DNA of 64,000 nt from NCBI GenBank assembly GCA_001880285.1, contig CP016269.1, positions 124,001-188,000 of the forward strand, given 5' to 3'. The notes under the pieces are model-generated. The model was not told where the DNA came from. It saw nothing but the letters and a program-made list of their open reading frames with translations, and ran no database searches. This DNA comes from Flavobacteriaceae bacterium UJ101. Its GTDB lineage: Bacteria; Bacteroidota; Bacteroidia; Flavobacteriales; UJ101. Shown here one piece after another: positions 1,544-34,002 of this stretch. Both the position numbers and the translations under genes were made by a program. Numbering within the stretch: the first letter of the stretch is position 1; each line of letters opens with the position of its first letter.

Positions 1544-2542
1544 TCAAACAACAAATCTTCTTACAAAAACATGTTTTAAAATAATATTTAATTGCTTATA
1601 TTCTATTAAAAATGCATCATGGCCATGAATAGAACGTAATTCATAATATTTTGAACTTGCTCCTTTATGTTTTAAAATTTGATGGTTTACTCGATTTTCA
1701 GCTGCTGTAAATAATAAATCTGAATTAATTGCTATTTGATATACATTAGCTTTTACAGTACCTGCTAATTCTTCAAAATTATTTTTACCATGTGTAATAT
1801 CGGCAGAACTTAATAAATAATTCATTGTTTTATAGGATTTCAAAGCAAAACGCTCCTTAATTTTAGTTCCATGATGGTTCAACCAACTTACTACATTGGG
1901 AATATGTTGCTTTTCACATTCCGAGCGGTTAAATTTACTAGTAAAAGATTCAGGTGTTCTATAAAATAACATAGCCATTTTACGAGCATCTTCCATCGGT
2001 TTACAAGAATTTTCTAATAAATTATTTTGAATTCCACATTGAGCAATAATCCAATCTGTTGCCTTCCAATCAGAAGCTATTGGAAAAATATTCTCAACAA
2101 AATCAGGATACTGTATTGCAATTTCCCAAGCCACACACCCTCCTAATGAACTTCCTATACATGCAAACAACTTATCAACTTTAATTTTCTTTAGTCCTTC
2201 TACAAATAATTTAGCAATATCAGCAACAATTAAATCATCATATTCAATATCAACATGTTCAATTGCATAATTATTATTTGGAATATCAAAAGTAATTACC
2301 GTATAATCATTTAAATTAATTACTTTATTAACTCCTACTAAACTTTTCCACCATCCTTTTTCTCCTGCTACTTCAGAATTTCCAGTTAATGCATGATTTA
2401 CCAATACAACTTCTGCTTCTCCTAACGGTTGTCCAAAAACCTGGTAAGTTAATTTTATAGAATCAAAGAACTTTCCTCTATAACTTATAAAGTTTTCTAT
2501 TGAACATTCTGATATTGTATTTGTTATTAAATTCGTAATCAT
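1544..2542 (-). CDS. metX: Homoserine O-acetyltransferase (MetX), alpha/beta hydrolase fold
   Basis: The 332-residue protein transfers an acetyl group from acetyl-CoA to homoserine, the committed step of methionine synthesis. It shows the nucleophile elbow GSSLGG (Ser near residue 132), the SDLLF segment carrying the acid, and the C-terminal GHDAFL with the catalytic His, all in MetX order. The start at 2542 (MITNL) was chosen because the longer frame up to 2650 runs backwards through a terminator hairpin and a leader peptide. That methionine-coded leader independently supports a role in Met synthesis. The length is slightly below the usual 350-380 residues, as in other short bacteroidete MetX proteins. 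An acyltransferase using succinyl-CoA cannot be excluded. Confidence 0.9.
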   Translation of the reverse strand: MITNLITNTISECSIENFISYRGKFFDSIKLTYQVFGQPLGEAEVVLVNHALTGNSEVAGEKGWWKSLVGVNKVINLNDYTVITFDIPNNNYAIEHVDIEYDDLIVADIAKLFVEGLKKIKVDKLFACIGSSLGGCVAWEIAIQYPDFVENIFPIASDWKATDWIIAQCGIQNNLLENSCKPMEDARKMAMLFYRTPESFTSKFNRSECEKQHIPNVVSWLNHHGTKIKERFALKSYKTMNYLLSSADITHGKNNFEELAGTVKANVYQIAINSDLLFTAAENRVNHQILKHKGASSKYYELRSIHGHDAFLIEYKQLNIILKHVFVRRFVV

Positions 2543-2565
2543 GTTTTTGTGTCTAAAAAGGTAAT

Positions 2566-2602
2566 AAAAAAAGAACCCCTGAAACATTTCAGAGGCTCTT
2601 TT
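2566..2602 (-). terminator. Intrinsic terminator of the metX attenuator
   Basis: On the - strand a 14-bp stem (2571-2584 with 2587-2600, two G-U pairs) closes a 2-base apex and is followed by seven U. It ends about 24 bases before the metX start codon and after the leader-peptide stop, the classical position for transcription attenuation. Confidence 0.85.
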
Positions 2603-2647
2603 AAATTGTCGTTGTTCCCATTTATATTTTGACCATAAAAACCTCTG
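2590..2647 (-). promoter_or_regulatory. Antiterminator pairing of the metX attenuator
   Basis: Bases 2637-2647 (CAGAGGTTTTT on the - strand, inside leader codons 10-13) can pair over 11 bp, two of them G-U, with 2590-2600, the 5' arm of the terminator. The two pairings exclude each other. A ribosome stalled on the early Met codons would leave 2637-2647 free and allow the antiterminator; a ribosome that reaches the end of the leader would cover it and allow termination. Confidence 0.75.
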
Positions 2648-2675
2648 CATAGTAATTACGCATCATAAACATCAT
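2622..2675 (-). CDS. Methionine-coded leader peptide of metX (MMFMMRNYYAEVFMVKI)
   Basis: This 17-codon open frame has Met at positions 1, 2, 4, 5 and 14. It lies about 45 bases downstream of a consensus promoter and ends about 20 bases before the terminator stem. It is too short for a gene caller. The clustering of Met codons in front of a Met-biosynthesis gene, with alternative RNA pairings downstream, marks it as a regulatory leader rather than a functional protein. No translation evidence is available from sequence. Confidence 0.82.
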   Translation of the reverse strand: MMFMMRNYYAEVFMVKI

Positions 2676-2719
2676 ATTTATTTGGTTTCTATATCTCAAA
2701 TTTCTAATTCTTATGTTTA

Positions 2720-2751
2720 CAAACATAATATCTTATTTTCATAAAAACAAA
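2720..2751 (-). promoter_or_regulatory. Bacteroidota-type promoter of the metX leader
   Basis: On the - strand TTTG (2748-2751) is followed by 20 bases and TATGTTTG (2720-2727), matching the TTTG / TAnnTTTG consensus used by bacteroidete RpoD. The -7 box is embedded in a perfect 8-bp-arm palindrome at 2711-2728 (TTATGTTT-AC-AAACATAA), which could be an operator. Confidence 0.7.
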
Positions 2752-2817
2752 CAAAACACTATATTTTATGTAAAGAAAACATTAAATTATTAATTAATAT
2801 AGATGAAAGATTCTTTT

Positions 2818-5800
2818 TTACTGATGAACTGTTTTTTCTTTCTTAATTTCTCTTTGCTCTTTTGATGAAAAACCAAAGCTATCCTTTACTCCACTTAAAA
2901 TAGATTTCCACCAATATCCAATAAATGATTTTTGATCATCTCTTTCTAAATAAATAACATTCTTTTTATTTTCTTGTCTGTTAGAAGAATGATTATTCAA
3001 AACTAAATTAACAAGTCCACTTAAAAATTTTTGTTCTTTTATTCGTTCTTTATCTAACAACGCAATATTTAGACTATCATAAATTAAATTTACGTTTCCT
3101 ATAGCATTTTTATCAGTTAAATCCATATCAAAATCCAAACGACGTGTATGCCCTTCTCGAACTCGTATTCCTGCAGCATCTTCAACAATTTCGTTTAAAC
3201 GGTCTAATGGAAAATTAGTCAAACTCCCCTTCATTTTTTGTAATTCATCTTCAGCTAATAAATCAAATTCCAAATCAACATCCAATCGACCTGCTCCCAT
3301 CAACAAAGCTTGTGCATGAGCATGAGCTTTATGATTTTGTATTAACTTTTCAGAAATATTCGTTATGTTATTCATCATTAAACTTAAACTATCCAAATAG
3401 ACTTGTCCTCCCTTTGGTGTATTTCCTGAGTATTCAGAATAATATAAAGATGAGGGTTTAAGATTTAATCGATTTACATAAAATTCTTTTTCAATTTTAC
3501 TTAATAATTCCTGAGGTAAAGGCTTAACTTTTGCTACTTTTGGAACTCTTTTATCTTTAAACAAATCTAATTCAGAAGATCCTATTATAACTTCATCTGC
3601 AAATAATTGTTCTTTTTCAATCCAATGTGGAATATCAATTTTATTAATTTTTACATAATCAATTTTTGCATCGATACGATCTACTTGGTTTTTCATTACC
3701 TTATGGTACGTTTCTTTAGAAAAAGTAGGTTCAATTTTTATATTTTGAATCTCTAATTGAGATGGATTAGTTGAAAATGTAATATTCTCAGCTCCAAAAT
3801 CATATAATTTACTCGATCTATGAACATCATGAACATTCAAAATGATATTTTTAGAATGTAATAATCGATCTTTATAATAATTTTTATCAATTAAAACATC
3901 TTCAAATTCTAAATTTACTTGACTTTGTTTTAATTTTCCAATTTCTAAATTTGCATCTTTAATTTCTACAGATTGTGCTTTTACATAATTAAAAATGTTC
4001 TCAATTGCCGGGTAAACATTAATAGAATCGATTTTTGGTATTCTTTTTTTACCTTCTGTTTGTTTATTCGGATTCTCTTTAATTTTTATCGTAGGTCGAT
4101 TAATAACGATTGATTGCACATCAAAATCATCATAATATAACTTTTCAGGATCCAAATCATCCAACATAAATTCTTCAATATCTACTTCTATTCGATCCTC
4201 TTTTTTAAATGTAAAGTTTTTTACTTTAAAAGCTCCTTTCATTACATCAAATTTTAAATCGTCCATTTTAAGTCCTGATTTATTTTTCAACGGAATATGA
4301 ACTTTTTTCATATGATACGTGGCATCATCAATTTCAAAATCGGTTTCTTTACCTACTCCATTATTAATTAAAACAAAATTCTTCCAATCTGAAGTTATTT
4401 CAAAACTTGCTTTTAATACAGGTTTACTTTTATTTACTTCTTCTTTATAAGTTTCTACAATCGTATTTTTAACATTTAACTCGCCTAATTTTAATGCTTT
4501 TACATCTTTAGGAAGTGGTAAATAGAAATTTTTAAAATTAAACTTCTTAACTTCTTTACCTTTTTTAGGGCGGTTTAATAAATTAATTTCAGCTTCAGTT
4601 AAACTTACTTTTCCAATTGAAACGGTATCGGTCTCGAATGCTTTTATCAAATCAAACTCTGTAACATCTAACGAAGGAATAATTACTTGGTAAAGTCCTT
4701 GGATTGACTTATATTTTTGAGCATTTGTATCAGGAAACATCAAAGCATTTCGAACATGCAATGAATTATCATTTGAATGAAAACTAATCTCATCTGCTGT
4801 TACCTTATGAACACCATCTCCTATTCCAAAGGTTTGATTTTCAACTGCAATAATAGCATTTTCAGAGAAAAAAACTTTGGCTTCTTTACCTGTTTTCCTC
4901 ATTTCTTCTTCATTAAACAAAAAGTGATCAATCTGAATATTAAAATCGTTATGGATATTCGTCTTTAACTTCTGTTCTTCATCTATCGTTTTTAAATGAA
5001 TTTTCCCATTAGGAATTTCTATACGATCAATTTTTATTTGCGGCATATAATTTAATGCCGTATAAAAAACGCCCTCTATTTCTTTAGGATCAAACTTTTT
5101 ATTTTTCTTTTTAAATTTTTTATGTGTTTCAATATCAACGGTTGGCTGATTAATTTCAAATAATGTTGCCTTCAACTCTCGATCAAAAATAGCTTTTTGG
5201 AAATCAATACCTTTAATATTAATTTGATCTGCTGAAATATTCATTAAAGAAGCTATTTTATAATGTTTTAAAGCTTCATGTCCACCCATCTCGGGTCGTA
5301 TTTTAAAGTTATTAATTTGAACTTGATCAGTCGTGTTTTCTAACTCAATTCTTTTAGCACTATAAATATTAACATCTTTTGGAGCTTTAAACTCATAATC
5401 TTCTATATTTAAGTCAAAACTCTTCGAAAATAAAACATGTCTATTTTCTTTAAAACGCTTAATATCAACATCTAAATTATGTAGCTGAAAATTAATTTTT
5501 CCTTTAAACTTTCCAGGTTTATTTAAAATTCGAAAATCTTTAAAATCAATTATGGCATTTTGTAAATGTACTTTTCTTGCTTGTACTCTATTAAAAATAG
5601 GTTCCAAAACATCTTCTAATTTAGAATCTCCCGGCTTAGTTTGGTCTAATTTATATAAATCATCTTTAATTTTCACATTCGACAATAATAATTCATCCAT
5701 CACTAATGATTTCTGATGATAAAGTTTTTTGAAATCGATCTTCTTTATTAATATTTCATCCGTATTTAAAAAGAATTTTTCATTCATTTTTTCTTTTAAT

Positions 5801-7086
5801 TGAATAGGCTGAATTGAAATATCTTTTAACAATACATTTTGTTTAGATGATGAAAGTTGAAAATCTTTAATTTTAAACTCATGAATTTGGTCATCTAAAT
5901 TTAATTGAAAATCGTGTACATCAATTTTAAAACTGTCAGCATAAAATATTTTATTAGGATCTTTTTCACTTATTGAGTCAATAGAAAATTGGTTAAGTTC
6001 AAAATCTAATTCCTCTACCTTTTGTATTAATTTAGGAGATTTTGAAGCTAAAAAATAATGAAATTTTGCTTGATCAATTTTTAAATGATGAATTGCTATT
6101 TTTTCAAAATCTTTTTTAATTAAATCATATAGATTCAGCTCATCAAGTTGTTCATAAGATGTGTTCTCCTTTTTCGTTTTCACCTCATTTTTATAATATT
6201 CAACTTGAGGTCTTTTAAGTATTAAATCATTTATAACCAATGAATCAAAAGCATGTAAATCAATCTTTTTTAATTTTAGATGTGCTTTCGGTATTTTAAA
6301 TTTAAAATAGTCTTTTTCTTTTTGAATATGTTTAGGCAATACAGCCAAATTTGACACATTCAAATATGATTTTTTTAACGAAAAGTCAAGTGTATCCGCT
6401 TTTAACAAATGAATTTCGTCTCCCAGCATACTTTCAAAATCTAAAAATCGTATGGCTAAATCTTTTATATCAAAATATTGTTCTTTTTCTATTAAAGAAG
6501 GATCTGAATGAAATTGATCTACTAGAATATCAATACGCTTAGCATTGGAAAACTTAACATTTTTAACTAATTTAGAATAAATGTTATAACCTGCATTTTC
6601 TAAAGAAATTTTATTGATATTTATTTCTTTAAATAAATCTTTTAGCACGTGATTACGAGGAGAAGTTGATTTTTTAGTATCGATTTCCTTAAAAGTACCA
6701 TACGTTGAAACTTTTGGGGAATTTAAACGCAACTCATCCATTTGAATAATTTCTTCTTTAAAGATCTTCTTATACTCAAAATTTAAAGCGTCAAACTCCT
6801 TAACTTTAATATTAAAAAATATAGTAGTTGAATCCTTTGCTAAAATTTGATTGGCTTTAATCGTATCAAACTGTAAATTAAACCCATGTATTTTTATATC
6901 TCCATCAAATAAGCCTATCTCAATTTTGTCATATTTTAGCTGATAAAGTCCATCGGTTTTTTCAATTAAATAATTATTGACTTTATCTTTAAAATATGCT
7001 TCTCCACGATAATAAATCAATGCTAAAACTCCCACTATTATTATCGTACAAACAACTCCTATTATTTTGAGTGTTTTATTCAACAT
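2818..7086 (-). CDS. Giant AsmA-like membrane-anchored envelope protein
   Basis: The protein has about 1422 residues. One N-terminal transmembrane helix (about residues 5-25, IIGVVCTIIIVGVLALIYY) is followed by a very long Lys/Asp/Ile-rich periplasmic part made of repeated amphipathic beta segments, and by a C-terminal piece containing GYWWKSILSG. This layout is that of AsmA/TamB/YhdP-type proteins, which are thought to bridge the envelope and move lipids; the exact role here is inferred. The start at 7086 (ATG) was preferred to a TTG three codons upstream. An 18-bp hairpin ends 8 bases before this start, so the gene either reads through from the Spy-like gene or uses a promoter inside the hairpin. 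Confidence 0.7.
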   Translation of the reverse strand: MLNKTLKIIGVVCTIIIVGVLALIYYRGEAYFKDKVNNYLIEKTDGLYQLKYDKIEIGLFDGDIKIHGFNLQFDTIKANQILAKDSTTIFFNIKVKEFDALNFEYKKIFKEEIIQMDELRLNSPKVSTYGTFKEIDTKKSTSPRNHVLKDLFKEININKISLENAGYNIYSKLVKNVKFSNAKRIDILVDQFHSDPSLIEKEQYFDIKDLAIRFLDFESMLGDEIHLLKADTLDFSLKKSYLNVSNLAVLPKHIQKEKDYFKFKIPKAHLKLKKIDLHAFDSLVINDLILKRPQVEYYKNEVKTKKENTSYEQLDELNLYDLIKKDFEKIAIHHLKIDQAKFHYFLASKSPKLIQKVEELDFELNQFSIDSISEKDPNKIFYADSFKIDVHDFQLNLDDQIHEFKIKDFQLSSSKQNVLLKDISIQPIQLKEKMNEKFFLNTDEILIKKIDFKKLYHQKSLVMDELLLSNVKIKDDLYKLDQTKPGDSKLEDVLEPIFNRVQARKVHLQNAIIDFKDFRILNKPGKFKGKINFQLHNLDVDIKRFKENRHVLFSKSFDLNIEDYEFKAPKDVNIYSAKRIELENTTDQVQINNFKIRPEMGGHEALKHYKIASLMNISADQINIKGIDFQKAIFDRELKATLFEINQPTVDIETHKKFKKKNKKFDPKEIEGVFYTALNYMPQIKIDRIEIPNGKIHLKTIDEEQKLKTNIHNDFNIQIDHFLFNEEEMRKTGKEAKVFFSENAIIAVENQTFGIGDGVHKVTADEISFHSNDNSLHVRNALMFPDTNAQKYKSIQGLYQVIIPSLDVTEFDLIKAFETDTVSIGKVSLTEAEINLLNRPKKGKEVKKFNFKNFYLPLPKDVKALKLGELNVKNTIVETYKEEVNKSKPVLKASFEITSDWKNFVLINNGVGKETDFEIDDATYHMKKVHIPLKNKSGLKMDDLKFDVMKGAFKVKNFTFKKEDRIEVDIEEFMLDDLDPEKLYYDDFDVQSIVINRPTIKIKENPNKQTEGKKRIPKIDSINVYPAIENIFNYVKAQSVEIKDANLEIGKLKQSQVNLEFEDVLIDKNYYKDRLLHSKNIILNVHDVHRSSKLYDFGAENITFSTNPSQLEIQNIKIEPTFSKETYHKVMKNQVDRIDAKIDYVKINKIDIPHWIEKEQLFADEVIIGSSELDLFKDKRVPKVAKVKPLPQELLSKIEKEFYVNRLNLKPSSLYYSEYSGNTPKGGQVYLDSLSLMMNNITNISEKLIQNHKAHAHAQALLMGAGRLDVDLEFDLLAEDELQKMKGSLTNFPLDRLNEIVEDAAGIRVREGHTRRLDFDMDLTDKNAIGNVNLIYDSLNIALLDKERIKEQKFLSGLVNLVLNNHSSNRQENKKNVIYLERDDQKSFIGYWWKSILSGVKDSFGFSSKEQREIKKEKTVHQ

Positions 7087-7093
7087 ATAAAAC

Positions 7094-7138
7094 AAAACTA
7101 CTAAATAAAAGTTGAAAACACTTTTATTTAGTAGTTTT
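7094..7138 (-). terminator. 18-bp perfect hairpin between the Spy-like and AsmA-like genes
   Basis: Arms 7094-7111 and 7121-7138 are perfectly complementary over 18 bp with a 9-base loop; on the - strand TTTTGTTTTAT follows. It is a good terminator for the Spy-like gene. The downstream arm also contains TAGTTTTG (7093-7100), a perfect -7 box, though no matching TTTG lies at 19-20 bases. Confidence 0.7.
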
Positions 7139-26271: not shown

Positions 26272-27513
26272 ATGAAAGGATTTAATTCAAAATTGATACA
26301 TGGTAAATTAGACAATCATTCTGATGAAAATTTTAGAAGTTTAAAAACACCTATTTACGATACTGCTTCATATGATTTTAAGAACGCTGAAGAATTAGAA
26401 GATGCTTTTCATGGTCGTGGGAATCATTTTGCTTATTCAAGAACAGCCAATCCAACTGTAGCAGAATTACAAAATCGTTTAAAAACAATGTCCAATGCAG
26501 AACATTGTTTGTGTGTAAGTTCTGGAATGTTTGCTATTTCCAGTGTTATTTTAAGTCTTTGTGATTCTGGGGATAATATTCTAGCTTCTAAATATCTTTT
26601 CGGAAATACCTATTCTCTATTTATAAAGACTTTTAAATCTTTTGGAATAGAAACCCGATTTGTTGATTTTGAAAATTTAGAAGAAGTTCAATCACATATT
26701 GATTCGAATACGCGTGCTATTTTTATGGAAATCATGACCAACCCTCAGTTAATTGTATATGATTTTGAACAAGTTGCTCAACTGGCTACTCAAAAAAATA
26801 TTCCTTTAATTGCTGACAATACGGTTTTAACATCGTATGGTTTTCCTTGTCATCAATACGATATTGATATTGAAGTTATTTCAACTTCTAAATTTGTTTC
26901 TGGAGGTGCTACATCTATTGGAGGAGCTGTTTTTGTACATAAAAACACCAAATGGGAACATGTCCCAAAATTAAAAAATGAATTCCAAAATTTTGGAGAA
27001 GATGCTTTTATCAAAAAAATCACACCTGAAATTTTTAGAAATATGGGAGGTTGTATGGCTCCCAATAATGCTTATTTAAAATTATTAGGGTTAGAAACAC
27101 TTTCATTACGTATTGATAAAATCTGTGATAATGCATTAAAAGCTGCACAATTTTTACAAAACCATCCTAAAGTAAAAGGAATCTCTTATAATTTACTAGA
27201 TAACTCACCTTACAACAAACGAACTAAAAAATATTTTAAAGAAAATATTGGAGGATGTCTGATCAAATTAGAATTGGAAAACAAACAACAAGCCTTCAAT
27301 TTTTCTAATGCTTTACAAATGATTCGTAGAGGTACGAATTTCTGTGATAACAAATCTATGATTATTCACCCTGCTTCTACTATTTATTGTGATTATTCAG
27401 ATGAAGAACGTCAAGAAATGCAAATTTATGATGGAACCTTACGTCTAGCAATTGGTTTAGAAGATTTTTCTGATATTCAAGAAGATTTAGAACAAGCATT
27501 AGATATACTATAA
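26272..27513 (+). CDS. Cys/Met-metabolism PLP enzyme (O-acetylhomoserine sulfhydrylase or gamma-lyase type)
   Basis: The 413-residue fold-type I PLP enzyme has TPIYDTASYDF, YSRTANPTVAELQ, SSGMFAISSVILSL, the PLP-contacting ADNTVLTSYG and the Schiff-base lysine in ISTSKFVSGGATSIGG. The family covers O-acetylhomoserine sulfhydrylase, cystathionine gamma-synthase and methionine gamma-lyase, which cannot be separated safely by eye. With a MetX enzyme in the same genome, direct sulfhydrylation of O-acetylhomoserine is a reasonable guess. A DUF1456 gene follows 18 bases downstream. Confidence 0.8.
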   Translation: MKGFNSKLIHGKLDNHSDENFRSLKTPIYDTASYDFKNAEELEDAFHGRGNHFAYSRTANPTVAELQNRLKTMSNAEHCLCVSSGMFAISSVILSLCDSGDNILASKYLFGNTYSLFIKTFKSFGIETRFVDFENLEEVQSHIDSNTRAIFMEIMTNPQLIVYDFEQVAQLATQKNIPLIADNTVLTSYGFPCHQYDIDIEVISTSKFVSGGATSIGGAVFVHKNTKWEHVPKLKNEFQNFGEDAFIKKITPEIFRNMGGCMAPNNAYLKLLGLETLSLRIDKICDNALKAAQFLQNHPKVKGISYNLLDNSPYNKRTKKYFKENIGGCLIKLELENKQQAFNFSNALQMIRRGTNFCDNKSMIIHPASTIYCDYSDEERQEMQIYDGTLRLAIGLEDFSDIQEDLEQALDIL

Positions 27514-33917: not shown

Positions 33918-33944
33918 ATGAATTTTTGGTGGAACACATATTAA
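33918..33944 (+). CDS. trp leader peptide (MNFWWNTY)
   Basis: This 8-codon open frame contains two consecutive Trp codons at positions 4-5. It lies 107 bases before trpE and 34 bases before a perfect terminator hairpin. The combination is that of a trp-operon leader in which ribosome stalling on UGG codons reports low tryptophan. TATATTTA at 33892-33899 could be the -7 box; no clear -33 element was found. Confidence 0.85.
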   Translation: MNFWWNTY

Positions 33945-33977
33945 CCTGAATATCAAACAGAAATCAATATAATATTG

Positions 33978-34002
33978 GCTTGTCTGTAGACAAGCTTTTT
34001 TT
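33978..34002 (+). terminator. Attenuator terminator before trpE
   Basis: GCTTGTCT/AGACAAGC form an 8-bp perfect stem (33978-33985 with 33988-33995) followed by seven T, 23 bases before the trpE ATG. Confidence 0.88.

Follow-up and report, generated by a model that had tools for sequence, protein, structure and literature searches.

Classical leader-peptide attenuators, such as those of the trp, his, thr, ilv, leu and phe operons, consist of a short ORF rich in codons for the amino acid of the pathway, an antiterminator that overlaps a U-tailed terminator, and a downstream gene of the same pathway. Methionine control is, in the textbook view, exercised by a riboswitch, a T-box or a repressor; the T-box reads tRNA charging ahead of amino-acid genes, among them the Met genes of some Firmicutes, and leader attenuation has, to our knowledge, hardly been described in the Bacteroidota phylum. 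In Actinobacteria, Cys leader peptides precede cys operons, those of Mycobacterium without an evident terminator, and no conserved RNA regulatory structures were found upstream of Met operons (PMC1262725).

The element upstream of metX in the window (the whole stretch of DNA analysed, 64,000 nucleotides from Flavobacteriaceae bacterium UJ101) has the parts of the classical design; judged by its sequence, it functions in the same manner, and it belongs neither to the known SAM riboswitches nor to the T-boxes. It departs from the classical systems in its control amino acid, Met, and its host, a Bacteroidota, in the frequent occurrence of two attenuators in series at related met loci, and in the location of the antiterminator arm, which falls within the leader ORF or at its end. 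Codons for sulfur amino acids in the leader ORF are shared with the actinobacterial Cys leaders (PMC1262725), which the Met/Cys second leaders of the relatives resemble. With the SAM-I riboswitch (RF00162) that precedes metX in flavobacteria it has in common the gene and the position, and both would reduce metX expression when methionine or SAM is plentiful; the metX leader, however, is without an aptamer, and sensing would occur by translation of Met codons rather than by binding of SAM. From the T-box it differs in that the proposed mechanism requires an ORF and a ribosome, not direct binding of tRNA. The first-pass annotation had called a Met leader peptide in Bacteroidota little documented, and we found no description of one in the open-licence literature, though older subscription journals may hold one; nor did we find there any account of control by Met codons, of attenuators in tandem or of their alternation with SAM-I at one gene, and priority is not claimed.

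Anatomy of the metX upstream region

The attenuator lies on the (-) strand of an intergenic site, with the metX ATG (2542) on one side and the end of a large gene (2818) on the other (Table 1). The MetX family profile matches the window MetX at 5.7e-47, under the curated cutoff, and the MetX of a flavobacterial relative scores in a similar range. Since the metX reading frame is open upstream to an ATG at 2650, through the attenuator (2543-2650, -), yielding a 368-aa ORF, automatic annotation may place the MetX start inside the leader and thus hide the attenuator.

Table 1. Features of the metX upstream region, in window coordinates.
Feature	Coordinates	Strand	Basis
Putative Bacteroidota-type promoter: TTTG 2751-2748, 20 nt, TATGTTTG 2727-2720	2720..2751	-	consensus fit
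Leader peptide gene MMFMMRNYYAEVFMVKI, Met codons 1, 2, 4, 5, 14	2622..2675	-	sequence; Met-rich counterparts before metX or metY in relatives
Antiterminator 5' arm, within leader ORF	2637..2647	-	folding, duplex test, covariation
Common arm: antiterminator 3' arm = terminator 5' arm	2590..2600	-	folding, covariation
Intrinsic terminator hairpin, 15 pairs, loop 4	2569..2602	-	terminator scan, folding, covariation
Terminator U-tract	2566..2572	-	terminator scan and sequence
metX (homoserine O-acetyltransferase family), presumed regulated gene	1544..2542	-	TIGR01392 match and relatives

The leader, whose length and five Met positions are as the first-pass annotation had read them, runs from the ATG at 2675 to the stop at 2624-2622 (-), with 5 Met among its 17 codons (ATG ATG TTT ATG ATG CGT AAT TAC TAT GCA GAG GTT TTT ATG GTC AAA ATA TAA); it is thus rich in codons for the amino acid of the pathway, as are its counterparts at other loci. 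Short ORFs with at least 5 Met and 25% Met number 3 in the window against a mean of 0.15 in block-shuffled windows, and among these 3 only MMFMMRNYYAEVFMVKI has a terminator and a met gene downstream. A 34-residue leader from the in-frame ATG at 2726 was rejected, since this start sits within the -7 box and would probably not be part of the transcript.

Bacteroidota promoters follow the consensus TTTG near -33 and TAnnTTTG near -7 (PMC7366714). Of the consensus promoter proposed at first pass, the Bacteroidota-type pair of TTTG and TATGTTTG exists; a scan for sigma70-type promoters is at chance level (5 found, 4.9 expected), and the -7 octamer is common by chance (107 in the window, 113 expected), so that the promoter at 2751-2720, which would place the start near 2713, is at most plausible.

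The antiterminator joins 2647-2637 to 2600-2590 by 11 pairs, including G-U; its 63-nt stretch folds at -13.4 kcal/mol (z -2.9), equalled by 1 of 200 shuffles, and its duplex energy is also reached by 1 of 200. The terminator, reported with 14 bp and counted here as 15 pairs, belongs to a 72-nt stretch folding at -19.9 kcal/mol (z -4.4), with 0 of 200 shuffles equally good. It is the one terminator-like site in 2300-3000, where 0.0 are expected, and stands between leader and gene, its tail 23-24 nt from the metX ATG (about 24 bases in the earlier reading). Both helices use 2590-2600 and are thus mutually exclusive, as had been claimed; all the sequence elements reported at first pass are present. 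The predicted fold of the entire region alone includes the terminator, so that in the untranslated state the default is predicted to be off.

Leaders before metX and metY in related genomes

The window genome (one contig of 3,074,209 bases) is the sole member of its family in the compared set, so that the relatives compared with the window copy all lie outside its family. The survey covered up to 3 kb upstream of metX at 128 loci, including the window, and searched for a short Met/Cys-rich ORF followed by a terminator, a strict Met leader having at least 4 Met and at least 20% Met. Most of these loci carry a SAM-I riboswitch upstream of metX, often immediately before it; the first-pass remark that other bacteria control Met mostly through SAM riboswitches and similar devices thus holds at metX too. 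A strict Met leader with a terminator is present at 19 of the 34 loci without SAM-I (window included) versus 3 of the 94 with it (Fisher 8.5e-11, a nominal value, given the relatedness of the genomes and the fact that the leader type was first recognised on part of the same 128 loci). The three exceptions are L117, L126 and L093; the leaders of L117 and L126 lie about 3 kb upstream, in L117 ahead of metY, with SAM-I separately before metX.

In the region upstream of metX, Met is the most over-represented amino acid of short ORFs followed by a terminator: 18 such ORFs in sense and 0 in antisense have a Met content of at least 20%, and the next highest sense-strand residues are Lys (10 to 0) and Ser (7 to 4). 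Similar leaders occur at many loci, usually ahead of a metY-metX operon and often in tandem, the pair frequently comprising one Met type and one Met/Cys type; examples are MKRLMHMPFMMMWNTPQGLLFA and MYTLTLDMAMRMMDMMMSPPCYGQKWKS (L022), MKRMMMHMTMMMPERNWRG and MKSLKQNMMMCMIMSMSMCMMMSMCRILQKAKQ (L012), and MCCMMCRLIYANGIVI and MMNNKFCCCLMEMCMMMHIMQPYYPD (Crocinitomix, L017). Flavobacterium davisii (L045) has two attenuators in series directly before metX, in place of SAM-I, the first with leader MITTICNMVFMMWKFPQR, leader arm GCAGAGG and terminator CCTCTGC-AAAA-GCAGAGG, the second with leader MLTIRKMMCCYYMMCCCASPSYYQYIKT and terminator GTCCTTTTGG. Met-rich leaders with the same order of parts are also found in a Saprospiraceae MAG and other Bacteroidota. 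The retention of leader Met codons in relatives, proposed at first pass as a check, is thus seen in several Bacteroidota families, either at metX or at the start of the metY-metX operon. In the one case tested, the gene that follows the leader is MetY (TIGR01326, 1.2e-192), and most others start alike.

Among 40 further Flavobacteriales loci held out from the survey, 3 have no SAM-I upstream: L232 and L234 have strict tandem Met leaders (MYKFICNMMRKMMWKASAARIIA / MSNNLSKAKNMMMNIMMMCMSMRMKCYCQNRM and MYQTIFNMMRMMMWKASAAHSIE / MKKAMNNMMMRDMMMSMMMRHMNRYCQNRI, respectively), and L214 a weaker Met/Cys leader, below the strict cutoff. Leaders are also present at 4 SAM-I loci of this set, in 3 of the 4 about 3 kb upstream, the position of metY in relatives (Fisher 0.054 for this small set). 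In a second held-out set, comprising 40 loci with distant MetX (about 28% identical; 39 outside Flavobacteriales), 0 of the 23 loci without SAM-I have a strict leader, and one leader adjoins a SAM-I; the claim therefore extends to the flavobacterial MetX group and some relatives, but not to all Bacteroidota.

Several loci show further arrangements. In the Flavobacterium-type loci L117, L126, L225, L228 and L233 the cluster holds three cis elements: a Met/Cys leader some 3 kb upstream, which in L117 precedes metY, a further leader (MNKSLQMNKMFNVA..VCVC) about 0.8 kb upstream, and SAM-I immediately before metX. L200 (G660) has a riboswitch and a leader in series, the short leader MMFGMCCCMC with its terminator following immediately downstream of SAM-I, about 1.5 kb before metX. 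On the antisense strand of L121 there are two further Met/Cys leaders with terminators, MKNNRQNNMNKMRNMMCCKHYLWNELA and MKTLHHNEMCHKSCRCMKMRLCCC; Met/Cys leaders may thus control additional genes.

The sole SAM-I of the window genome (G000:C1:896766-896868, L078) lies upstream of metH, the first domain of which is a separate ORF; SAM sensing has thus not been lost in this genome, and on this reading metX would be under Met-tRNA charging and metH under SAM. No leader was found at either of the genome's two further cystathionine-synthase-like genes, one of which lies at window position 26272. The window also contains a likely trp attenuator at 33919-33996 (+), with the leader MNFWWNTY and the terminator GCTTGTCTGTAGACAAGC plus a T run, before trpE and trpG; this leader region has no Rfam match at gathering score.

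Pairing and ribosome geometry across relatives

In 21 of 31 leaders, the duplex between the leader and the 5' arm of the terminator is matched by at most 5 of 200 leader shuffles; it does not rise above shuffles in the first leader of L022, the second leaders of L144 and L145, L142, and L151. Within the window-type group the three arms change together, reading GCAGAGG/CCUCUGC/GCAGAGG in L045, GCGAAGG/CCUUUGC/GCAAAGG in L107, and GCAGCGC/CCGCUGC/GCAGCGG in L232 and L234. The 7-nt arms were registered by hand, with artificial spacers and one bulge removed, which biases the covariation statistics towards structure; thus registered, the antiterminator has 90.5% of cells paired and a covariation of 0.321 (0.172 shuffled, reached by 1 of 500), the terminator 96.8% and 0.377 (0.158 shuffled, reached by 0 of 500), and slid-arm controls are only 35-60% paired. 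The mutually exclusive antiterminator is thus conserved with covariation under hand registration, and the compensatory changes in both pairings that the first-pass annotation named as a check are found in the window-type group.

This covariation bears on the possibility that the hairpin is an ordinary terminator, for example of the upstream gene at 2818-7095 (-), whose end lies 216 nt upstream of the hairpin on the same strand, and that the Met-rich ORF is there by chance. An antiterminator that covaries with the terminator, and the recurrence of Met-rich ORF, competing helix and terminator at metX or metY amid different neighbors, make this very improbable. Slightly less probable again is a metabolite riboswitch, either a SAM variant or an unknown class, acting through the terminator, with the short ORF incidental: SAM-I does occupy the same place in most relatives, but the window has no Rfam match at gathering score, for a SAM aptamer of known class or otherwise, a permissive scan of 2300-2900 with the SAM families and the T-box covariance model gives no match up to E = 5, only about 70 nt separate the leader start from the hairpin, and both the Met codons and the arms are kept in relatives.

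The distance from the last Met codon to the antiterminator arm is mostly 9-15 nt across leaders. The ribosome was assumed to cover 14 nt upstream and 15 nt downstream of the first P-site base; on this footprint, the arm is entirely free in 26 of 30 leaders when the last upstream Met codon is in the A site, and all 30 have at least 2 Met codons that leave it free when so placed; with the ribosome at the stop codon, 70% or more of the arm is covered in 23 of the 30. Both features coincide in 23 leaders; a rough null with random arm positions averages 10 and never exceeds 18. In the window copy the arm is free at all three upstream Met codons and 33% covered with the ribosome at the stop, which lies past the arm, and this cover is lower than in most relatives; repression of the window copy may rest on ribosomes in transit or on partial cover, or it may be leaky. 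An arrest of the TnaC or ErmC kind, in which the nascent chain in the exit tunnel, and not hungry Met codons, would respond to Met, SAM or a drug, could account for the residues that recur past the Met run of several first leaders (MMWK or MMWN, then PQ), yet it is as improbable as the riboswitch, since peptide length and sequence vary widely while Met content and Met-to-arm distance recur, and several of the recurring residues overlap the RNA arm.

Proposed attenuation by charged Met-tRNA

The element is very probably a ribosome-mediated transcription attenuator of metX whose signal would be charged elongator Met-tRNA; the interpretation of the first-pass annotation, a Met leader attenuator, is supported by the sequence comparison. 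From the anatomy we infer the signal, the stalling step and the direction of control as follows. RNA polymerase would start near 2713 and transcribe the leader ORF. With Met-tRNA plentiful, the ribosome would pass the Met codons and run over 2647-2637 towards the stop; the common arm 2600-2590 would then pair forward into the terminator, and transcription would end before metX. When Met is short, the ribosome would stall when codon 2, 4 or 5, each Met, occupies the A site, its front edge short of 2647; the antiterminator 2647-2637/2600-2590 would form first, and polymerase would read through into metX. With no ribosome, the terminator of the predicted fold would keep the default off. One point counts against Met as the control codon: Met starvation should slow initiation at the leader as well, and a shortage that would starve the leader's own initiation is a problem that can be tested.

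Met-specific attenuation is likely a clade-wide alternative to SAM-I at metYX in Flavobacteriales and some relatives, often with two attenuators in series (Met; Met plus Cys codons); the operon would then be gated by how far the tRNAs for sulfur amino acids are charged, not by SAM. The similar elements of related bacteria, found mostly where SAM-I is missing, suggest an undescribed way of methionine sensing; if true, the Met-codon attenuator would add methionine to the amino acids that are sensed by translating ribosomes. Since related genomes have the riboswitch and the attenuator in place of one another at this gene, these bacteria would offer a natural experiment in SAM versus Met-tRNA charging as the signal.
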